A stretch of DNA of 64,000 bases from a bacterium (lineage in GTDB: Bacteria > Vulcanimicrobiota > Vulcanimicrobiia > Vulcanimicrobiales > Vulcanimicrobiaceae). The position numbers were made by a program, and so were the translations under genes. Positions 52,566 to 63,260 of the stretch are shown piece after piece. A model generated the notes under the pieces. It was not told the DNA's origin. It worked only from the letters and a program-made list of their open reading frames with translations, and searched no databases. How positions within the stretch are numbered: the first letter of the stretch is position 1; each line of letters begins with the position of its first letter. Location of the stretch: positions 62,001 through 126,000 of the forward strand of contig JAGWSR010000074.1 of assembly GCA_028869385.1 (NCBI GenBank), given 5' to 3'.

Positions 52566-53951
52566 CTAACGCGAGCGGTTGCTCGACGTCGGTCGAATCA
52601 CGTGCGGGGTGATGAAGAAGACGATCTCGTCGCGCTCGTGATGTGTCTGCTTGTTCTTGAAGAATGCGCCGAGCACGGGAATCTGCGAGAGCCCCGGCAC
52701 GCGCGAGATCGTTTCGCTGGTCACGTCGCGCATGAGCCCGCCGAGCACGATCGTCTCGGCGTCTCGCACGCGCAGGACGCTATCGATCTTGCGATTGGCG
52801 ATGATCGGATAGCCGCTCGACGTAAGGCCGAGCAACTCGCTGTACTCGGGATGCAGTTCGGCCGTCACGATACCATCGCTCCCGATCGTCGGCGTGAGGC
52901 GCAGCTTGACCCCGATATCGACGAACTGCACGTTCTGACCTCCGAGCACGGAAGTGTTGTACACGATCGGATAGGTCTCGCCGATCAAGAGATCGGCTTC
53001 GCGATTGTTCAGCGTCATCAGCTTTGGCGTCGCCAAGATCTGCGCGCGGCCCTGGGCGATGAGCGCGTTGAGGCGAACGTTCACCGGGATCGAGCCTCGC
53101 GCGAACGCATATGCCGTCGATCCAGCGATCGCGTCGCCGTGGAGGTCCGCTCCTCCCCACTCGAAGCCGACATTACTCTCGTCGTTCTGTGGGGTCACGT
53201 CGGCAACTTTCACCTCGAGCAGCACTTGCGGGCTCGACCGATCGATCGTTGCCAATAGCCCAGCGGCGGAGGTCTGAACGTCCTCGTCGCCTTCGACCAC
53301 GACCGCATTGTGATTCGAATCGTCAACGTAGATACCGTCCGGACGTACGAGCTTCAATTGGGCGATCGCATCCGACGCGCGCACGTACTGCATCACGTAC
53401 GCCTTGGTCGCCGGAGCGGTTGCACCCGCTCGCGCGTCGGCGTCGAGCGCGCGAACGAGGCTGCGGGCGCGCGCGATCGTCGGTGCATCGCCGGTGACGA
53501 TCACCGATGCCGTGCGCCGGTCGGCGATCAATACCGTCCCGTCCGGAAGCGCAGGCGTCAGTTCGCGGACGACATCGTCCGGCTTCGCCCGCGCGAGCGC
53601 GATCACGGCCGTCTGTGCGCCGAGTTGAGAGTTCGCGCTCGCGTATCGACGATTCATCGCATCGGCAGATCCGACGATCAGCACGTTTCCCTCGCGCCGA
53701 ACCGCGAGGCCATGCGCCTCCACCAACACGGCGAGCGCCTGCGCGAAGGTGACGTCGTGCAGATGGAGCGTGACGCGTTCGGGCTTCAACGATCCGTCGG
53801 GAACGACGTTCGTACCGCTCTCCGACGCCAGCAGCGCGATGACCGCGGAGATATCGGCATCGTGCACGTCGATCGTGATCGTTGCCGTATCGGCATGCGC
53901 GTGGCCAAGCGTAACTGCGAACGCGAGCGCGAGCGCGACGAACTGCTTCAT
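52566..53951 (-). CDS. pilQ: Type IV pilus secretin PilQ
   Basis: 461 residues, short for the family. Signal peptide, an STN/N0-like domain (DVHDADISAVIALLASESG), N1-type ring-building domains (ALARAKPDDVVRELTPAL; VMQYVRASDAIAQLKLV) and the secretin barrel (VLLEVKVADVTPQND ... LATPKLMTLNNREADLLIG ... VLGGLMRDVTSETISRVPGLSQIPVLG, in pieces). Forms the outer-membrane pore for the pilus. No AMIN or peptidoglycan-binding repeat is seen. Last gene of the pilus operon, overlapping pilP by 4 nt. Confidence 0.93.
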   Translation of the reverse strand: MKQFVALALAFAVTLGHAHADTATITIDVHDADISAVIALLASESGTNVVPDGSLKPERVTLHLHDVTFAQALAVLVEAHGLAVRREGNVLIVGSADAMNRRYASANSQLGAQTAVIALARAKPDDVVRELTPALPDGTVLIADRRTASVIVTGDAPTIARARSLVRALDADARAGATAPATKAYVMQYVRASDAIAQLKLVRPDGIYVDDSNHNAVVVEGDEDVQTSAAGLLATIDRSSPQVLLEVKVADVTPQNDESNVGFEWGGADLHGDAIAGSTAYAFARGSIPVNVRLNALIAQGRAQILATPKLMTLNNREADLLIGETYPIVYNTSVLGGQNVQFVDIGVKLRLTPTIGSDGIVTAELHPEYSELLGLTSSGYPIIANRKIDSVLRVRDAETIVLGGLMRDVTSETISRVPGLSQIPVLGAFFKNKQTHHERDEIVFFITPHVIRPTSSNRSR

Positions 53952-54457
53952 GGGTGCTCCCGACGGAGGAGCACCCGCGCCCCGCTCGCGAGCGTGATGC
54001 CGGCCGCGTCTATGCTCGCGACGCGCGTGGTACCGATTGTATCGCCGACGCCGACGACCTCGACGGAGCCGTCGACCTCGACGAGCGCGCGCGAGTAGCG
54101 ACCGAGCACGACCGCGCGAACGACGACCTGCGCGTTCGCAGCGGATGCCAAGGCGCCCGCATTCGGCGGTAACGCGATCGCGTCGTTCCCCGACGGACCG
54201 AGGCCCGAACGCGACGGCGCGCCCGGAACGTATGCGGAGACGAACGGATCGCGCCGCGGCACGACCGCGGCCCGGCTCGCATCGTGCGGCGGGACCGGCA
54301 GACCGAGGCGCACCTCGGAGCCTTCCCGCGCCGCATAGACGATCTCGCTCGGCCGCTGGGTCAACGGGAGCACGGCAAGCGATGCAACGACCAACATCGC
54401 GGAGAGCCTTCCGAGCGACGCGCGTCGCTCGTCATCGATGGCGGGCACGACGATCAT
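53948..54457 (-). CDS. PilP-like pilus assembly protein
   Basis: 169 residues. One N-terminal membrane segment (LSAMLVVASLAVLPL), a disordered Pro/Ser/Gly region with RRDPFVSA (DPF motif common in PilP/GspC-like proteins), then a small beta domain (VVRAVVLGRYSRALVEVDGSVEVVGVGDTIG, in pieces). PilP links the PilMNO inner-membrane complex to the secretin. Identity rests on domain order and its place between pilO and pilQ; direct similarity to PilP is weak. Confidence 0.7.
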   Translation of the reverse strand: MIVVPAIDDERRASLGRLSAMLVVASLAVLPLTQRPSEIVYAAREGSEVRLGLPVPPHDASRAAVVPRRDPFVSAYVPGAPSRSGLGPSGNDAIALPPNAGALASAANAQVVVRAVVLGRYSRALVEVDGSVEVVGVGDTIGTTRVASIDAAGITLASGARVLLRREHP

Positions 54458-55044
54458 TTGTCCTCCAACTCGGAGAGCGCGGGAGCGGGGTGAATCGCGA
54501 CGTGGAGCGTGGCATCGAGTTCCGGCGCACCTGCGCGTCGCGCATCGCGCACTTTGAGTTCGGCGCGTGTGACCTCGATCAGGACCCGATCCAGGGTGAG
54601 CTCGCGCGTGAAGGTCAGAATCGACCGATAGTCGCCCCGCAGGCCGATCTCGAACGGATACGGCGTCGGCCCTGCGGCGATCGAATTCGACGCAGAGGTC
54701 TGTGCATCGGGATCGAAGCTCGTCAAGCGAACGCCCGCTCCGCGCGCCCGCGCGGCGATCGTTCCGAGCGCCGCCGCGATGAGCGCACCGCTCGAAGCAC
54801 GGCCGGCGAGGCGGCGCGCATCGGCGGCGACCTGACTGCGAATCCGTTCGAGCGCACGGCTCCGGCGCACGATCGCATCGTTGCGTGCCGCGGCGTCATC
54901 GAGCGAACGCGCCCGGTCGCGAAGTGCGGCCACGCGCGCGCTCCCCGGAACCCAGATGCCTCCCACGCCGATTCCGAAAAACATGACGGCGGTGCAAAGC
55001 CACACCGCGCGAGCCAGGGCCACCGGAGAAATGCGCTCCTTCAT
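54454..55044 (-). CDS. PilO-like pilus assembly protein
   Basis: 196 residues. One N-terminal membrane helix (WLCTAVMFFGIGVGGIWV), a coiled-coil stretch (about 35-75) and a ferredoxin-like C-terminal domain (PYPFEIGLRGDYRSILTFTRELTLDRVLI, in pieces) as in PilO. Forms the alignment complex with PilN and PilM. ATGA overlaps on both sides show tight coupling. Assigned from topology and operon position. Confidence 0.75.
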   Translation of the reverse strand: MKERISPVALARAVWLCTAVMFFGIGVGGIWVPGSARVAALRDRARSLDDAAARNDAIVRRSRALERIRSQVAADARRLAGRASSGALIAAALGTIAARARGAGVRLTSFDPDAQTSASNSIAAGPTPYPFEIGLRGDYRSILTFTRELTLDRVLIEVTRAELKVRDARRAGAPELDATLHVAIHPAPALSELEDK

Positions 55045-55592
55045 CGTGCCGACGAGCCGGTGCCGAGTTCAAACTCGACGGTATCGCCACGCGCGTCCTC
55101 GGCTGCGCGCGCGAGGTGCAGTGACCCGGCGATTCCCGGCTCCGCGGCAAAGGTATGCGCCGCATCGCGCAGCGCTTCGAAATCGAGAGCAGCACCTTCG
55201 AGCGACGTCGCCTCTCGACTCGTGTCGAAAGACGTCAGCCAGGCCCGCGCGACGAGGTGATTTCCAACATCGGCGATACGATCCGCGATGCGTCCACCCG
55301 AAGCCCGGATCTCGCGCATCGTCCGATCGAGCGCGATCATCCGCTCCACATCGACGCGCTCGAGGCGCGCCCGCGCGACCGCCAGACGGCTTTGCTCGAA
55401 ACGTACGCGCGCCCGCGTCGCAGCGTCGCTTGCGCGGTCGATCCAGGAGTGCTCCAGTACGGCCCACGCACTCACCACGACGGTCGCCGTCGCGAGCGCG
55501 CAGAGCGGCGTCTTGAGACGCTCGGGTAGTCGCAGCGATCGTGCGAGTTCGAGCCAACGCCACGGTGCATCGTGAACGAAATCGAATCGCAT
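55041..55592 (-). CDS. PilN-like pilus assembly protein
   Basis: 183 residues. Short cytoplasmic N-terminus (about 30 residues), one membrane helix (PLCALATATVVVSAWAVL), coiled coil (about 60-95) and a small C-terminal domain. PilN uses its cytoplasmic N-terminus to bind PilM; the usual INLLP motif is not obvious, so the match is by layout. Start ATG 55592 overlaps the pilM stop; the frame before it is not coding. Confidence 0.72.
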   Translation of the reverse strand: MRFDFVHDAPWRWLELARSLRLPERLKTPLCALATATVVVSAWAVLEHSWIDRASDAATRARVRFEQSRLAVARARLERVDVERMIALDRTMREIRASGGRIADRIADVGNHLVARAWLTSFDTSREATSLEGAALDFEALRDAAHTFAAEPGIAGSLHLARAAEDARGDTVEFELGTGSSAR

Positions 55593-56545
55593 CACGCGCA
55601 CCCGTGGAGCGCGAGCCCGGCGGCAAGCGCCCAATCGGGCGCCGCAGCACGGACGACATCGTCGGGATAGGCTTCGCCGCGTAAGATCTCCGGCACGCGT
55701 ACCTCTGCCGCGAGACCCGTCGCGCATTCGAGCGTGCGGGTCAGTTCCGCGAGACGCGCGCCGTTGCCGGTGAGCGAGAGCACGCTCGCCGCACCGCGAG
55801 CGCGGACTCCTTCGACCACGCTGACGAGACGCGACGCGAACGCGCCGACGCTCGCGCGCCCGGCGCCGGCGGTGCCGAGGATGCGCTTGCGCTTCTCCGC
55901 GATCTCCTCACTGACGCCGAGATCGCTCGCGATCGCATCGGTGACGTCGCTTCCGCCGCTCGGTACGTGCCACGAGCGCGGCCCATCGTCGAAGAATGCG
56001 TGCAGCGTGGCGCGTCGCGTCCCGATATCGAGGACGAGCGACGCTTCGGGAAACGATCGATGCAGCGCGCATCCGTCGAAATCGACGGCGACGATGCGCA
56101 GACGCGCCGCGCGCGCGAGCGCCACTCTTCGCGCGATCGCGGACTCGCGGGCGGCGCCGAGCAGATAGCGGCCCCCACGGTCGAACGGATGCACCCGGAC
56201 GACGAGCCGCTCGCCTCCGTCCCGCAACCCGGGCGTCGACTGCAGCTCGAAGGACGCTGCGCGATGCCGCTCGATCCGGCTCATCGGCGGCATCGCGACC
56301 GCGCGTACGTACGCATCGCCGGCGCCGACGCTGAAGACGCAGCGCCGTTCGCGCGTTCCGAGTTCTTTCAGCATGTCTCCGACGAGCGCCGCGAGAGCCG
56401 CTTCGTCGCCGGCTTCTTCCGCTAGGTCGCGCGAGACCACGGCGCAGAGGCGCACCTCGCCGCCGCGCGCGCGCTCCAATTGCGCGATGCGCACGCGTGA
56501 CGCACCCACGTCGATACCGAGGGGCAGGCTGCGATACTTACGCAT
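55592..56545 (-). CDS. pilM: PilM-like actin-fold pilus assembly ATPase
   Basis: 317 residues. FtsA/actin-like fold: GIDVGASRVRIAQLE (phosphate 1), VDFDGCALHRSF, LVLDIGTRRATLHAF (phosphate 2), PSGGSDVTDAIASDLGVS and VLSLTGNGARLAEL (adenosine). Cytoplasmic platform protein that binds ATP and the PilN tail and contacts PilB/PilT. Overlaps pilD by 8 nt and pilN by 1 nt. Confidence 0.87.
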   Translation of the reverse strand: MRKYRSLPLGIDVGASRVRIAQLERARGGEVRLCAVVSRDLAEEAGDEAALAALVGDMLKELGTRERRCVFSVGAGDAYVRAVAMPPMSRIERHRAASFELQSTPGLRDGGERLVVRVHPFDRGGRYLLGAARESAIARRVALARAARLRIVAVDFDGCALHRSFPEASLVLDIGTRRATLHAFFDDGPRSWHVPSGGSDVTDAIASDLGVSEEIAEKRKRILGTAGAGRASVGAFASRLVSVVEGVRARGAASVLSLTGNGARLAELTRTLECATGLAAEVRVPEILRGEAYPDDVVRAAAPDWALAAGLALHGCA

Positions 56546-57143
56546 GCATGCGTTCCCACACGAGCACGCCGAACGCTCCCGCCGCGAGATAGGGCGCGAA
56601 GGCGAGTCGCTGTCCGAATCGCGCGCGCCCGAGCGCGAGCGCGACGAGCGAGACTACCGCGCCTAGGACGAAGGCCGCGCCGAGCGTCGCGAACGCCGAC
56701 GCACATCCGACTCCGGCGCCGATCGTACCGGCGAGCTTCACATCCCCGAGCCCGAATCCGCGCCCCCTGGTAGCCATATGGAGCAACAATGACGCGCTTC
56801 CGGCGCTCGCACATCCCAGCAATGCCGCCGGGAACGCACCGGAACACGCGGCAAGCACGAGCAGCACGCCGCACGTGCACGCGGTCGTCGCGTCGAGGAT
56901 CAGTCCGTAACCGACGTCGGTCGCCGCCGACACGACGAGCCCCGCCGCCAAACATGCGACCACGAGGGTTGCCGGACCGTCGGCAAGCGTATACGCGCCA
57001 AGTGCGGAGAACGCGAGCGCCGTCGCCACCGTATTCGACCGAAGCGGCAACCCGCGACGCCGCAGCACCAGGCCCGCAATCGTCGCTTCAACGCCGAGCG
57101 CCGCTGCATACGCGAACGCCATAGCCGTGCTCGATACGATCAC
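56538..57143 (-). CDS. pilD: Prepilin peptidase (A24), peptidase domain only
   Basis: 201 residues, about six hydrophobic helices. Catalytic aspartates Asp76 (AATDVGYGLILD) and Asp134 (GLGDVKLAG, the GxGD motif). The N-terminal N-methyltransferase domain and its CxxC zinc pairs of standard PilD are absent. Cleaves the pilin leader at Gly-Phe. GTG start overlaps the TPR gene stop (GTGA). Confidence 0.9.
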   Translation of the reverse strand: MIVSSTAMAFAYAAALGVEATIAGLVLRRRGLPLRSNTVATALAFSALGAYTLADGPATLVVACLAAGLVVSAATDVGYGLILDATTACTCGVLLVLAACSGAFPAALLGCASAGSASLLLHMATRGRGFGLGDVKLAGTIGAGVGCASAFATLGAAFVLGAVVSLVALALGRARFGQRLAFAPYLAAGAFGVLVWERMHA

Positions 57144-57679
57144 GATCCGAGCGTCCGTAGCGCACGCCGCGCGACCGTTTGCCCGACATCGAGGCGTAGT
57201 GCCGCAGTTAAGTATCGACGCGCGCGCCTGCGATCCCCGGCGTGCAAAGCATCGAGACCGGCAAAGACATACGCGCGGGTGTCACCGTCACTCGCGCCGA
57301 CGCGAGCGAAATCGGAGGAGGCCGCATCGTAGCGTTTCAGGAGCTGATAGGCGATCGCGCGATCCATGCGCACGCTCGTCGCATTCGGAACGCGGCGTAA
57401 GACGGCCGTCGCGACGGCGATCGCATCTTCGACGAGCGCGCGCCGGTGGCTCACGAACTCCCCAAACGCCAAACGATCCGCAGCCGTCACGTTCTCGGGA
57501 TCCAGCGCAAGGGCTCGCCGATAGATCGTTCGCGCATGTGCCGAATCACCGCGATAGGTCAGGTCGTCACCGCGCGTCACCAACGCCGACGAGAGCGATC
57601 CTCGCAAGACGACGCACGCGATCGCAACGGCCACGAGCACGACGGCCGCTCGCCGCGGCGCCTCCACCGCAATCGTCAT
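57140..57679 (-). CDS. Membrane-anchored TPR protein in the pilus operon
   Basis: 179 residues. One N-terminal membrane segment (RRAAVVLVAVAIACVVL) then TPR-like helices (DSAHARTIYRRALALDPENVTAADRLA in pieces; YQLLKRYDAASSDFARV; ALHAGDRRRARRYLTAALRLD). Could be a PilF/PilW-like assembly factor for secretin, but there is no lipobox. Start ATG 57679 overlaps the ccdA stop. Confidence 0.75.
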   Translation of the reverse strand: MTIAVEAPRRAAVVLVAVAIACVVLRGSLSSALVTRGDDLTYRGDSAHARTIYRRALALDPENVTAADRLAFGEFVSHRRALVEDAIAVATAVLRRVPNATSVRMDRAIAYQLLKRYDAASSDFARVGASDGDTRAYVFAGLDALHAGDRRRARRYLTAALRLDVGQTVARRALRTLGS

Positions 57680-58299
57680 GCTAGGAGTCCGTAGTAGGCG
57701 CCGAGGGCGAAGGCAAGGCCGCACGAGATCGTTGGAAGTGTCGTTCGCACGAGCGCCGACCCGAGGATGCGTTGCGTGATGCTCGACGCGCACGCGGCGA
57801 GCGCGAGCGGAGCGGCATGCCCGCACGCGAACGCCGCCAGCAGTAGCGCGCGGGCCGCCGGGTCGCGGACGAACGCGCCGACCCCTCCGAACGCGAGGAG
57901 CAGTGGGGCGCAGCACGGCGAGATTACGAGGGTGGAGGCCGCTCCGAGCAGCAACGCGCCGCCGAGCGAACGCGATGGGCGCGCGCCGTCGCAACAGCTT
58001 CCGCTGCGCTCCGCCGCGCAGAGTCCCCACAGCGACATGCCGATCAAGCTCACGCTCAGCAGCGCGTAGATCAGACGCGAGTTCGCGAGCGCGGTTGCGA
58101 GCAACAGCCCTCCGGTGCCAAGCGCGACGAACCCTCCGATCACGCCGACGACGAAGGCAGCCCCAAGACGCAAGCGCGTGCGGCGGGACCCGACGCCGAT
58201 CAATGCAGCGAGCCCGAGATATCGCGGTGCGACGCAGGGTCCGACGCTCGAGAGCAGACCGGCGGAGAAGGCACCGAGCGGCGCGAGCACGGGGTTCAC
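57676..58299 (-). CDS. CcdA/DsbD-like thiol-redox membrane protein
   Basis: 207 residues, six hydrophobic segments in two similar halves, each with a conserved cysteine before Pro: Cys22 (SSVGPCVAPRYLG) and Cys129-130 (VISPCCAPLLL). CcdA carries reducing power across the inner membrane. Extra cysteines sit in a loop (GSCCDG). GTG start overlaps the pilin stop (GTGA). Its partner here may be the pilin, which has two cysteines, rather than cytochrome c maturation; no ccm/ccs genes are near. Confidence 0.85.
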   Translation of the reverse strand: MNPVLAPLGAFSAGLLSSVGPCVAPRYLGLAALIGVGSRRTRLRLGAAFVVGVIGGFVALGTGGLLLATALANSRLIYALLSVSLIGMSLWGLCAAERSGSCCDGARPSRSLGGALLLGAASTLVISPCCAPLLLAFGGVGAFVRDPAARALLLAAFACGHAAPLALAACASSITQRILGSALVRTTLPTISCGLAFALGAYYGLLA

Positions 58300-58742
58300 T
58301 TCGATGCCGTAAGGCCGTCGGCGGATGAGTATTCGATGTGCTGGCTCCCCGCCGACCCACCGATCGCGCTCATCGTTCCGGGATCGTGCTGACCCGGACA
58401 GACGATCGTGTAGGAGGCATCGCCTGCGGTCGGGTTCGTCGTGGTGTACGTGTACTGACCGGCGGGGTTCACCGGATCCACGGGTGTCTGCTTGAGATAC
58501 GGCGCGAGATTCGCGTCGCTCGCCACGACGGGAGCGGCATTCGCGCTCGGGTAGGCTTCGTGATCGGTCTGATAGAGTTCGAGTGCGGTCGCGATCTCTT
58601 TGAGATTCGCCTCGCACGCGGCCGTCTGTGCCTGCGCGCGCGCTCGAATGAAATTCGGAACGAGTATCGCCACCAAGATTGCGATGATCGCGACGACCAC
58701 CATCATTTCGATCAGCGTGAACCCGCGTTCGCCTTCTTCCAT
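58296..58742 (-). CDS. Type IV pilin / GspG-like prepilin
   Basis: 148 residues. Very short leader MEEGERG then FTLIEMMVVVAIIAILVAIL, with Glu at mature position 5; cleavage Gly7-Phe8. N-terminal helix, then a small globular part with Cys43 and Cys115. The ELYQTDHEAYP segment resembles GspG-type pseudopilins. It is the only pilin-like gene in the operon, so probably the major subunit. GAGGAAGAG ribosome site just before ATG. Confidence 0.92.
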   Translation of the reverse strand: MEEGERGFTLIEMMVVVAIIAILVAILVPNFIRARAQAQTAACEANLKEIATALELYQTDHEAYPSANAAPVVASDANLAPYLKQTPVDPVNPAGQYTYTTTNPTAGDASYTIVCPGQHDPGTMSAIGGSAGSQHIEYSSADGLTASK

Positions 58743-58793
58743 CTCTTCCTCGCCTTCAAGGCTATCGTGCCTACGACGAGAGAGGTGCCCACA

Positions 58794-59465
58794 TCAGCCC
58801 GCGCGGTGACACGCGAACGCCGCAAGTTTTTTCAAGACCGCTCGATGCATGCGCGTGACGTGGCGTCGCGAATATCCGAGCTTGCTCGCGACTTCGCAGA
58901 TCGGCACGTCGTTTTCGTAGATCTCGCAGACGAGGGTTCGCTCCAGCATCGAGAGTCGCGCGACTGCGTGTGCGATCGCCATGCGGTCGATGGTGACGTC
59001 CAGGGTATAGGAAAGGTCGGCGTGCTCGCGGACGCCGATCGCATCGACCGAAAGGACGCGTTCGCTCTCGCGATACCGACCGATCTCGCGACACTCGCCG
59101 GGAGTCAAGTCGAGCGCTTCGGCGATTTCGCGATCGCTCGGCTCGGCGCCGCAGCGTTGTGCGAGGTCGGCATGCGCGGCGCTCCACCGCCGCGCGAGAT
59201 CGCGGAGGCGGCGTGGGGCACGCAGCAAGCGCTCCGCGTCGCGTACGTGATGCATCAATTCGCCAAGGATATAGGTCCACGCGAACGCCTCGAACGGCGT
59301 GCCGACCTGTGGATCGAATCGATCGGCGGCTTTGATCAGGCCGATTGCGGCAGTCTGCTCGAGATCTCGCCGATCCAGACCGCCGCGCATGAACTTGCGC
59401 GCGGCGCGCGCGCAGAGGTAGTGGTGCGCCTCGACGAGACGGTCGCGCTCCGAACGGTCGTTCAC
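58794..59465 (-). CDS. Alternative sigma-70 factor (SigB/SigF/WhiG-like group 3)
   Basis: 223 residues. Region 2 (RRDLEQTAAIGLIKAADRFD with TPFEAFAWTYILGELMHHVRD, in pieces), region 3 (EPSDREIAEALDLTPGE) and region 4 with the helix-turn-helix CEVASKLGYSRRHVTRMHR. Group 3 sigma layout as in SigB, SigF and FliA. Its gene overlaps pilC by 4 nt and precedes the pilin, so it is made with the pilus machine. Members of this group are commonly held by RsbW-type anti-sigma factors; none is encoded next to it. Confidence 0.9.
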   Translation of the reverse strand: MNDRSERDRLVEAHHYLCARAARKFMRGGLDRRDLEQTAAIGLIKAADRFDPQVGTPFEAFAWTYILGELMHHVRDAERLLRAPRRLRDLARRWSAAHADLAQRCGAEPSDREIAEALDLTPGECREIGRYRESERVLSVDAIGVREHADLSYTLDVTIDRMAIAHAVARLSMLERTLVCEIYENDVPICEVASKLGYSRRHVTRMHRAVLKKLAAFACHRAG

Positions 59466-60682
59466 TTGATACTCCCGATGATCGAGTAGAGTGGTACGAG
59501 GATCGCCGAAACGATCGTCGCGACGACCGCTCCGAGAATGAGCATGACGAGCGGTTCGATCGCGGCTGCCGCGCCTGCCAACGCCGCGTCGACCTCGCTA
59601 TCGTGATTCGTCGCGATCCGCAGGAGCATCGCATCGAGTTCCCCCGTCTCAACCCCGACGTGCATGAGGTGCAAGGCTACGCTCTCGAAGAGCGCGCTCG
59701 CCGCGAACGCATCGAGGAACGGCTCGCCGCGCTGCAGCGCCTCCCGCGCATCCGAGAGCGCCGCCGCATACGGTCCCCGCCCGATCACCTCGCGCGTCGC
59801 CTCGAGCGCGGACATCAACGGCACTCCCGAACGAAGCAAGGTTCCGAGCGTTCGGACCAGACGAGCCGCGTTCGCGAGCCGCACGATGTGTCCGATGACC
59901 GGTAACGCGAGCGGCACGGCGGCGACCGCATCGGCGAGGCGCGGAAGGCGGCGAAGGAGCCCCCATGCCGCCGCCGCAACGCAACCAAAGGCGCCTGCGG
60001 CGATCCATGCCGTGCCCGAACGCAGCCACGATCCGAGCGCGATGAGCACGCGCGTCGTCAGCGGAAGCGAGATCCGTTCGTCGGCAAACATCGCCGCGAA
60101 CGTTGGGAGCGTATCGGCCACGAGAAAGAGCACGAGCGCCAACGCCGCGGTCAGCACGACCAGCGGATAGATCGACGCAACGAGGGTGCGGCGCCGCAGT
60201 TCCTGGTCACATTCGAGCATGGTGGCGATGCGCTCCAAGACATCGTCTAAGCGCCCCGAGAGTTCGCCCGAACGCACGAGCGTCACCAGAAGCGAAGACC
60301 ATTCGTGGGGGCGGCGCCCGAGTGCCGTCGACAACGAACTCCCCGATTCGATATCGGCACGTACCGAGGCTAACGCTTCGCGCAGACGCGCGTCGCGGCA
60401 CTGTGCGATGCAGACGTCGAGCGCGCGGTGCAGCGCCACGCCGGCTTGCACGAGGGTCGCCAACGAGCGAAAGAGCACGACGCGTTCCCGGCGCCCCACG
60501 GGCAAGATCGTCGTGACGCCGGTCACGATGCCGCGCACGGAGCGTGCGGGTTCGAGCGAGGTGACGAGTAGGGCTCGCGCGCGCAAATGTGCGAGAGCCC
60601 GGTCGGCGGTCTCCGACGACAACGTTCCGGCGACGAACGCGCCTTCGACGGTGCGAGCGGTGTATCGGTACGCCGCGCTCAT
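59462..60682 (-). CDS. pilC: PilC/GspF inner-membrane platform protein
   Basis: 406 residues. Starts YRYTARTVEGAFVAGTL, two T2SSF domains (about 65-190 and 265-390; RSLATLVQAGVALHRALDV and RLVRTLGTLLRSGVPLMSALEA in pieces) and three membrane helices. Couples the ATPases PilB and PilT to pilin insertion or removal. Overlaps pilT and the sigma gene by 4 nt each. Confidence 0.94.
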   Translation of the reverse strand: MSAAYRYTARTVEGAFVAGTLSSETADRALAHLRARALLVTSLEPARSVRGIVTGVTTILPVGRRERVVLFRSLATLVQAGVALHRALDVCIAQCRDARLREALASVRADIESGSSLSTALGRRPHEWSSLLVTLVRSGELSGRLDDVLERIATMLECDQELRRRTLVASIYPLVVLTAALALVLFLVADTLPTFAAMFADERISLPLTTRVLIALGSWLRSGTAWIAAGAFGCVAAAAWGLLRRLPRLADAVAAVPLALPVIGHIVRLANAARLVRTLGTLLRSGVPLMSALEATREVIGRGPYAAALSDAREALQRGEPFLDAFAASALFESVALHLMHVGVETGELDAMLLRIATNHDSEVDAALAGAAAAIEPLVMLILGAVVATIVSAILVPLYSIIGSIK

Positions 60683-61719
60683 AGCCTCGCCGCGATCTCG
60701 CCGTCGATCTCGCGCCGCGCGAGCAGATCGCCCGCGTGCTGCGCGAAGGTCATCATGCCCTCGTGGCGAGCGGTCATGATCGCATTGCCGAGCTGATGCA
60801 CGCGGCCCTCGCGGATCATCGCTCGCACCGCGTCATTCGCGACCAGGACCTCCACGACCGGACGTCGCCCTCCCCCCGGAGCGCGCGCGACCAAGCGCTG
60901 GCAGACGACCGCGGCGAGCGATTGCGCGAGTTGCGCGCGCACGTACGCCCGCTCGGCTCCATCGAAGGCATCCACCACACGATCGACCGTCTGTGCGGCG
61001 GTACCGGTATGCAGCGTCGTGAGAACCAGGTGACCCGTCTCGGCCGCGACGAGCGCGGCGCGCATCGTCGCCGGATCGCGCATCTCGCCGATGGCGATGA
61101 CGTCGGGATCTGCGCGCAACGCGCCGAGTACGGCGCTCGCGAAGCTCTCGACGTCGCGCCCCACTTCGCGCTGCGTAAACATCGAGAGGTCGCTCTCGTG
61201 TCGATATTCGATCGGATCTTCAAACGTGACGATGCGGCAGGAGCGCGCGCGCGCGATTTCGGCGAGCAGCGCGGCGAGCGTCGAGGATTTTCCGCATCCC
61301 GTCGGGCCGGCGAGGACGATCAGGCCGCGTTCGCACGAAGCCAGGCGAGCCACCTCCGCGGGCAAGCCCAGTTCGTCGAGGGACGGTGCGCGAGCGCGAA
61401 GCAGGCGTAGGGCGATGCAGATGCCGTCGCTCGCGGTATAGGCGTGGACGCGCACGGCGACTCCGCTTTCGCGATCGCACCAGACGCCGGTTACGTCGTG
61501 CTCCCGCACCAGGGCGCCGCAACGGCGATCGCCGAGCAACGTACGCAGTAAGGCGGCGCTCTCCGCCGGTTCGATGGGTGCGCCTTCGAGATAGCGCAAC
61601 CTGCCATGCACGCGCGTCGCCGGTCGCGCGCCCGGAGCGATATGTATGTCCGACGCACCGTCGCGATGCGCCACGTGCAACAGATCGCGTAGACGCAAGG
61701 GCACCATCGCTTCACGCAT
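60679..61719 (-). CDS. pilT: PilT-type pilus retraction ATPase
   Basis: 346 residues. Walker A GPTGCGKSS, Asp box (IVTFEDPIEYRHES), Walker B (DPDVIAIGEMRDP), His box (LVLTTLHTGTAAQTVDR). Starts DGASDIHIAPGARP in the PAS-like N-terminal domain, and VPLRLRDLLH is typical of PilT. Ends QHAGDLLARREI-like, matching the PilT family. No zinc motif, unlike PilB. Start ATG 61719 overlaps the pilB stop by 8 nt; frame before it is not homologous. Confidence 0.9.
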   Translation of the reverse strand: MREAMVPLRLRDLLHVAHRDGASDIHIAPGARPATRVHGRLRYLEGAPIEPAESAALLRTLLGDRRCGALVREHDVTGVWCDRESGVAVRVHAYTASDGICIALRLLRARAPSLDELGLPAEVARLASCERGLIVLAGPTGCGKSSTLAALLAEIARARSCRIVTFEDPIEYRHESDLSMFTQREVGRDVESFASAVLGALRADPDVIAIGEMRDPATMRAALVAAETGHLVLTTLHTGTAAQTVDRVVDAFDGAERAYVRAQLAQSLAAVVCQRLVARAPGGGRRPVVEVLVANDAVRAMIREGRVHQLGNAIMTARHEGMMTFAQHAGDLLARREIDGEIAARL

Positions 61720-63163
61720 GCGCCATCCCCACGGCGCACACGCGCAGCACCTCGGAGAGATCGGTCGTTCCGCGCACGATTGCCGCACGCGCGGCGTCGA
61801 CCATGGGGCGATAGCCACGTTCGCGAGCGGCGCCCGCGAGAACCACCGACGAGGCGCCGGCGCCCACGAGTCGCCGCATGTCGTCATCGAAGGCCAAATA
61901 TTCGAAGATGCCGGTACGGCCAGCGTATCCGGCTCCACCGCAGGCCGCGCAGCCCGTCGCGGTATAGGCGCGACTACCGGGTTCGAGCCCGAGCAGGCGC
62001 GCCTCTTGGGGCGCGAGCGCGGTCTCACGGCGACACTCCCGGCAGAGTTTGCGCACGAGGCGTTGCGCGAGGACGCCCGAGAGCGCCGCCGCGACCGTCG
62101 CCCGTGCGACCCCGAGTTCGCTCAAGCGATCGATCGCGCGTCCGGCATCGGGCGCATGCAGCGTCGTCGCGACGAACGTTCCCGAGAGCGCCGCGCTCGC
62201 CGTTTGCGCATCGCGCATCTCCCCGACGACGATTGCATCGGGATCGTGTCGCAAGAACGAGCGTAGCGCGCTCTCGAAGGTGAGACCGGCGCGCACGTTT
62301 ACTTGCACTTGCGTCATGCCGGAAACGTACGCTTCGACCGGATCCTCAACCGAGCACAGATGCTGGCTCTCGGTGTTGCGTTCCGCAAGCGCCGCATAGA
62401 GCGTCGTCGTCTTGCCGCTGCCGGTCGGACCGCACACGACGACGAACCCATGCGCTGCCTGCGTAGCCGCGCGCAGCCGCGCGAGGATCTCGTCGGGTAT
62501 TCCGAGGGCATCGAGATGTGGAACACGAGCGTGCAGGTCGAGCAGGCGAACGACGAGTTTCTCGCCGCCGACGGTCGGCATGGACGACACGCGCGCCTCG
62601 ACGCTACGCCCCGCGTGCTCGATACGATATCGGCCGTCCTGAGGTTGACGGCGCTCCGCGATGTCCAACGCGGCGAGCACCTTGATTCGCGATACGACCT
62701 GCGCGAACAGGTCGCCGTCGAGGCGTCGACTCTTACGCAACAGTCCGTCCACGCGCAGACGAACGCGCCCGCCGGCGTGAGCCGGCTCGATATGAACGTC
62801 GGAAGCCCCACGCTCGAGCGCCTCTCCATGGATCTCGTCGAGCGCACGCACCGCCGGAGCGGCGTCATCGAACGCTTCGCTCATAGGTTCGTTCGCAGGA
62901 GCGTATGCGGCGCGGATGCGCGCATCGAGCGAGGAGGCGGCGCGCGTTGCGTGTATGCGAAGGCCCGTCTCGGCACGAAGCGCATCGAGGACGGTCGAAG
63001 CGTCGTGCTCGACCTCCACGTAAAGTTCCGCACCGTCGAGGCGATACGGCAGCACACCGAGGCGCAGCGCCGTCGCTTGCGGGACGCGCCGCAGCGCTTC
63101 CGCTGCGGTAGAATGAAACTCACCCGCGGGCAAAGATGCCCGGGGACGTAACGAGAGAGCCAC
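61712..63163 (-). CDS. pilB: PilB/GspE-type pilus extension ATPase
   Basis: 483 residues from GTG 63163, with GGAGA 6 nt upstream; TTG 63217 would lie at the expected transcription start and has no ribosome site. N-terminal MshEN-like region (about 40-100), then the ATPase with GPTGSGKTT, CSVEDPVE, DPDAIVVGEMRD and TTLHAPDAGRAIDRL. Zinc motif CRECR with CAACGGAGY marks the PilB/GspE branch. Drives pilus polymerisation. First gene of the operon. Confidence 0.93.
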   Translation of the reverse strand: MALSLRPRASLPAGEFHSTAAEALRRVPQATALRLGVLPYRLDGAELYVEVEHDASTVLDALRAETGLRIHATRAASSLDARIRAAYAPANEPMSEAFDDAAPAVRALDEIHGEALERGASDVHIEPAHAGGRVRLRVDGLLRKSRRLDGDLFAQVVSRIKVLAALDIAERRQPQDGRYRIEHAGRSVEARVSSMPTVGGEKLVVRLLDLHARVPHLDALGIPDEILARLRAATQAAHGFVVVCGPTGSGKTTTLYAALAERNTESQHLCSVEDPVEAYVSGMTQVQVNVRAGLTFESALRSFLRHDPDAIVVGEMRDAQTASAALSGTFVATTLHAPDAGRAIDRLSELGVARATVAAALSGVLAQRLVRKLCRECRRETALAPQEARLLGLEPGSRAYTATGCAACGGAGYAGRTGIFEYLAFDDDMRRLVGAGASSVVLAGAARERGYRPMVDAARAAIVRGTTDLSEVLRVCAVGMAHA

Positions 63164-63231
63164 ACCCGTTCTCCGTTCGCGTCGTTCAGTTCTTGCCGGC
63201 GCCGCTCGGTCGAGCAAGCGTCCGGAGCCCT

Positions 63232-63260
63232 GTTATCGCATATCTCCGGATTTTTGGCAA
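63232..63260 (-). promoter_or_regulatory. Promoter of the type IV pilus operon
   Basis: Minus strand: TTGCCA (63255-63260), a 17-nt spacer and GATAAC (63232-63237). The predicted transcript begins near 63225, giving a leader of about 60 nt to the pilB GTG. The repeat CCGGA flanks the -35 region on both sides. A housekeeping-type promoter, not one of evident alternative-sigma type. Confidence 0.65.

Follow-up and report, generated by a model that had tools for sequence, protein, structure and literature searches.

The type IV pilus operon described here carries a sigma factor gene of its own, embedded between pilC and the gene for the major pilin. We consider it likely that this sigma factor reads GTC/GGGCAC promoters as part of a two-tier pilus cascade, although recognition is inferred and no transcription data are available. 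The operon itself, the conserved slot of the sigma gene, the GTC/GGGCAC motif, the position of that motif and the set of genes that carry it are all documented from sequence alone.

The pilus operon and its embedded sigma factor

The window, by which we mean the whole stretch of 64,000 nucleotides that was analysed, belongs to a 3.08-Mb draft genome whose closest named relatives are Candidatus Eremiobacterota. Its type IV pilus operon comprises 13 genes, all on the minus strand, which run from pilB to pilQ within positions 52566-63260. Adjacent genes mostly overlap, by 4-8 nt, and the sole gap, of 51 nt, separates the sigma gene from the pilin gene. An unbroken series of 13 genes over this range, with this one interruption, had been described in the first-pass annotation, and the ORF and profile checks confirm its order and range.

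The machine genes at the head of the operon encode the extension ATPase PilB (61712..63163; T2SSE, 351 bits), the retraction ATPase PilT (60679..61719; TIGR01420 pilT_fam, 335.8 bits, above cut-off) and the platform protein PilC (59462..60682; T2SSF, 174.6 bits). For pilB, translation probably begins at the GTG at 63163, which is likelier than the TTG at 63217 that marks the upper limit of the ORF. The gene for the embedded sigma factor, a protein of 223 aa, follows at 58794..59465, and behind it are encoded the major pilin (58296..58742; 148 aa, N_methyl and T2SSG matches), a CcdA/DsbD-type membrane protein (57676..58299; DsbD_TM, 28.9 bits), a TPR protein with a possible PilW/PilF role (57140..57679; TPR_2 above cut-off and a weak TIGR02521 PilW match), the prepilin peptidase PilD (56538..57143; Peptidase_A24, 33.2 bits), PilM (55592..56545; PilM_2, 42.1 bits), PilN (55041..55601), PilO (54454..55044), PilP (53948..54457) and the secretin PilQ (52566..53951; Secretin, 151.7 bits, with Secretin_N and STN). 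PilN, PilO and PilP have no Pfam match and are named by position; their place and size fit, as do homologues at the equivalent place in relatives. Profile matches are found for all of PilB, PilC, PilD, PilM, PilQ, the major pilin and PilT, which satisfies that part of the definition of a T4aP-like system. In most relatives, too, the gene for the CcdA/DsbD-type redox protein comes after that for the pilin. The pilin contains two cysteines, and the redox protein may serve disulfide formation in it.

A putative sigma70-like promoter lies at the head of the operon (63232..63260, minus strand), where TTGCCA (63260-63255) and GATAAC (63237-63232) are separated by 17 nucleotides. Identified by eye, it looks like a housekeeping promoter and is unlike the motif found before the pilin gene. 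Similar sequences of the form TTGC..-N17-GATAA[CA] were recognised, again by eye, before pilB in three related loci; a strict sigma70 consensus scan upstream of pilB gave no match.

What kind of sigma factor is embedded here? Sigma70 regions 2, 3 and 4 all score above cut-off. The best NCBIfam model is TIGR02980 (SigBFG), at 134.7 bits, which is below its curated cut-off of 234, and the FliA/WhiG model scores lower still (84.2 bits, cut-off 189.6). The earlier assignment of the protein to group 3 therefore stands, and the protein is best described as SigB/F/G-like rather than FliA-like. In a phylogenetic tree the embedded sigma factor and its Eremiobacterota relatives are split, with support of 100/100, from the SigF-type sigma factors and from a SigB/F-like paralogue (~33% identity) that is encoded in the same genome and in nearly all genomes of the family. 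Class-level copies of the sigma factor fall on the other side of this branch, so that the tree does not establish a single origin for all of them. The operon genes include no recognisable anti-sigma factor or export checkpoint, no RsiG-type anti-sigma factor was recognised among those scanned, and neither the operon nor the scanned neighbouring genes include a linked RsbW-type kinase or anti-anti-sigma gene.

Opposite the sigma gene, on the plus strand, runs a long ORF (58560-59489); its codon scores are good, and it is probably a shadow ORF of the high-GC sequence. Owing to this antisense ORF a codon-usage gene caller missed both the sigma and pilin genes, and its output was not relied on.

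The slot occupied by the sigma gene is conserved, as the first-pass annotation had proposed to check in relatives. The order pilC-sigma-pilin recurs in 21 of the 30 sigma-containing loci fetched from the family, most of which continue with ccdA and the TPR gene. Among 48 Eremiobacterota-type loci of a second collection, tallied by hand, the sigma gene directly follows pilC in 28, lies upstream of pilB in 6, adjoins aroC without nearby pil genes in 12 and is otherwise placed in 2. Conservation in dozens of species excludes a chance arrangement. The wider neighbourhood, ftsA-ftsZ-thyX-[pil operon]-aroC-aroB-priA, is likewise common across the family, and MAGs without a close match to the sigma factor also lack PilC, with a single exception (G025). 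In a second type of operon, represented by six loci, the sigma gene lies upstream of pilB and pilC adjoins the pilin gene.

A promoter-like motif at pilin and helper genes

An internal promoter in the 51-nt gap or near the end of the sigma gene had been suggested at the outset, and a conserved pair of elements resembling a -35 and a -10 is located exactly there. The putative sigma-dependent promoter (58785..58810, minus strand) consists of GTC (58810-58808) and GGGCAC (58790-58785) with 17 nucleotides between them, and the general motif, GTC-N17-GGGCA[C/T], straddles the sigma stop codon and the gap. In an alignment of sigma-pilin junctions from some 20 species, GGGCAC or a one-base variant is found 13-64 nt before the pilin gene in most, again in most cases with GTC 17 nt further upstream. 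The full pattern GTC-N17-GGGCAY precedes the pilin in 14 of 24 loci, compared with a mean of 0.013 in shuffled sequences, and in the same loci it is never found upstream of sigma, pilC, ccdA or the TPR gene. The loci are related and shuffling is consequently an incomplete control; a better one is the complete absence of the pattern before neighbouring genes.

The motif also follows the pilin gene when this is displaced. It accompanies the pilin at a separate locus, exactly in one case and as the -10 element only in two, and where the pilin gene is 515 nt from the sigma gene it is retained with GAC in place of GTC. In operons with the sigma gene upstream of pilB, it is absent before the pilin. 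Four further loci, from MAGs labelled Bacillota or unclassified rather than Eremiobacterota, have pilB-pilT-pilC followed by a distant homologue of the sigma factor, and one of these, Bacillota-labelled and with matching gene order, has GTCTA-N15-GGGTAT upstream of the pilin in the equivalent register. This is a single case, and MAG labels can be wrong.

SigB/F-type promoters have the form GTTT/GGGTAT, which GTC/GGGCAC resembles, and it is in that clade that the embedded sigma factor has its best match. The conserved sequence before the pilin, GTC-N17-GGGCA[CT], does not meet the FliA/WhiG promoter criterion of TAAA / GCCGATAA. A FliA-like -10 element in the 51-nt gap (CACGATAG) was considered and rejected, since relatives conserve GGGCAC but not this element. 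In a locus of the sister family (L052; 7549-8781 and 7524-7549), a CRP-like regulator gene lies between pilD and a pilM-like gene, with a second copy of the motif directly before the latter.

Prepilin genes elsewhere were then scanned with a matrix built from the major-pilin sites alone; in most of them the motif is found 13-23 nt upstream of the prepilin signature. The exact motif precedes 14 of 33 scattered minor-pilin genes (0.03 expected from shuffled sequences), and GGGYAY precedes 30 of the 33 (4.2 from shuffled sequences). There are 65 matches to the pattern in the 3.08 Mb of the source genome, and these include two of its three other prepilin genes; the third, which is TadE-like, has no motif. 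Most of the 65 lie inside genes, and a regulon list based on this genome alone was therefore dropped, only matches recurring across species being believed. Cross-species matches in pabB, leuS and a permease gene were set aside as coding coincidences. Those that remain add a lytic transglycosylase, a further pilin-like gene and a membrane protein whose GGDEF assignment was read from its sequence. For the lytic transglycosylase, GGGYAC is found 10-12 nt before the start in 10 of 11 orthologues and in none of 7 paralogues. For the diguanylate cyclase, 16 of 23 cases have GGGYAY no more than 20 nt from a possible start, a loose test given the choice of starts.

The short distances between motif and start imply that the minor-pilin and helper mRNAs may be leaderless or nearly so, with the start some 10-20 nt after the -10 element; the major pilin of the window retains a longer leader. 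In four loci a palindrome of the type ACTTTGTATCACAAAGT lies next to the -35 element of the minor-pilin promoter or overlaps it, beside an apparent divergent gene, and is possibly the operator of a local regulator. The predicted regulon is centred on the pilus. A regulon that excluded pilus and surface genes would have refuted the earlier claim that the sigma factor directs the pilin or other late genes; the motif before the pilin, the minor pilins and the helpers instead supports that claim, with recognition by the sigma factor remaining an inference.

Sigma without pilus and motif without a detected sigma

Is the pilus the main business of this sigma factor? In a group of species the whole pil operon has been lost and the sigma gene alone is kept, between thyX and aroC. 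The sigma factors of these pilus-less species form one nested clade in the tree (100/99), and the region upstream of the gene resembles, by eye, the pilB promoter and start codons; apparently the operon was deleted around the sigma gene. At this old thyX-aroC site the gene is under purifying selection (dN/dS ~0.03-0.28), which implies that the sigma factor can have other work. Together with the presence of a diguanylate cyclase and a transglycosylase among the targets, its retention gives some weight to the idea that it is mainly a broader lifestyle regulator, for which pili are one output and the operon slot only secures co-expression. We regard this as unlikely, though it is the alternative that survives best, because every conserved target recognised so far is a pilin or a plausible helper of the pilus and the other shared matches in the source genome lie inside coding genes; moreover, no convincing common target of the pattern emerged in three pilus-less genomes among the 30 of 118 matches examined.

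The converse situation is found in four MAGs (G002, G022, G027 and G058), in which the sigma factor and PilC are both undetectable although minor-pilin or helper genes still carry the motif. Three causes could each account for this, namely gaps in the assemblies, recent loss, and use of the motif by a different sigma factor; the first two are plausible because each of these MAGs has a congener with the operon. If the third applied, the motif would be a real promoter read by a different group 3 sigma factor, such as the SigF-like paralogue present in nearly all genomes of the family, and the embedded sigma factor would act elsewhere or redundantly. Such a division of labour seems improbable to us, given that the motif lies at the embedded sigma factor's own neighbour, that its targets are pilus genes and that the sigma factor and PilC are lost together.

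It can hardly be maintained that GTC and GGGCAC are not a promoter but are bound by a DNA-binding regulator or have some role in translation, for although no transcription starts have been mapped and the GGGCAC half alone is strong at some genes, the motif has two parts at a fixed 17-nt spacing, in a single orientation and just before starts, as expected of a -35/-10 pair, it keeps its position before minor pilins of differing protein sequence, and RNA structure in the sigma-pilin gap does not exceed that of shuffled sequences.

A proposed two-tier cascade and its precedents

We therefore return to the embedded sigma factor as the probable reader of the motif. In the first tier of the proposed cascade, housekeeping polymerase would transcribe pilB, pilT, pilC and the sigma gene from the sigma70-like promoter before pilB. 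In the second, polymerase carrying the embedded sigma factor would read GTC[C/T/A]-N16-GGGCA[C/T] at the major pilin and the genes downstream of it, at the scattered minor pilins, and at the genes for the lytic transglycosylase and the GGDEF diguanylate cyclase. The putative head promoter is sigma70-like and the pilin motif is different, so that their order fits expression of machine and sigma factor first and of subunits second, the timing being inferred. The likely benefit would be that fibre subunits are supplied late and strongly, when expression of the machine genes is already under way. The first-pass annotation had envisaged late genes switched on once the machine is built, a scheme for which gene and promoter order are the only support, no checkpoint or anti-sigma factor having been seen among the operon genes.

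The cyclase would be expected to raise c-di-GMP, with a possible further link to PilB. In MshE-type ATPases c-di-GMP acts through an MshEN domain; the profile search finds only a weak MshEN match in PilB, below cut-off, and the link remains no more than a plausible lead. The most general formulation is that an operon-embedded pilus sigma factor with its own GTC/GGGCAC code, and with near-leaderless minor-pilin and helper mRNAs, is the ancestral control in Eremiobacterota, occurs in a few other MAG lineages, couples machine expression to fibre supply and c-di-GMP synthesis, and has been kept for another job in the pilus-less clade. To this formulation as a whole we give even chances.

The analysis offers a compact model for scaling filament subunits to the machine. 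For a phylum that has hardly been studied at the molecular level, it also supplies a promoter code and a list of targets that can be tested. Vulcanimicrobium alpinus, a cultured Eremiobacterota strain, shows type IV pilus phototaxis (PMC9758169), and its availability in culture makes the predicted cascade testable.

We found no description in the open-licence papers searched of a pilus operon with its own pilin sigma factor. In the flagellar FliA/FlgM hierarchy, as here, the genes of the machine come first and the filament is placed second under a dedicated sigma factor, but no FlgM-like anti-sigma factor or export checkpoint was found in the pilus operon, and the embedded sigma factor scores higher as SigB/F/G. 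The competence sigma factors ComX and SigH of Gram-positive bacteria also switch on a type IV pilus-like machine; unlike the embedded sigma factor, they are encoded outside the pilus operon.

Two functional precedents exist for pili under sigma control, cyanobacterial SigF and Rubrobacter WhiG. SigF controls pilA in Synechocystis. In Nostoc punctiforme, SigF drives pilA; its regulon comprises very few genes, with the major pilin at its centre, and the authors attribute the existence of a dedicated sigma factor to the high demand for pilin (PMC6495340). There SigF is described as acting within a cascade led by SigJ, and no SigF consensus was found (PMC6495340); the J-Box of the related SigJ, GGGaAtacT, has three G residues, as does GGGCAC. 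That work reports for SigF neither a place inside a pilus operon nor a regulon of minor pilins such as is predicted here. In Rubrobacter radiotolerans, WhiG promoters lie in type IV pilus clusters and before diguanylate cyclase and phosphodiesterase genes (PMC8325347). The WhiG-RsiG-(c-di-GMP) system thus resembles the one described here in combining a group 3 sigma factor with promoters at a type IV pilus cluster and at cyclase genes. It differs in that WhiG comes from another phylum and falls in the flagellar FliA clade, with TAAA/GCCGATAA promoters, whereas the present sigma factor is SigB/F/G-like, with a GTC/GGGCAC motif, sits between pilC and the pilin and has no known anti-sigma factor. 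Sigma control of pilus assembly would thereby extend to a third group of bacteria and to another sigma clade.
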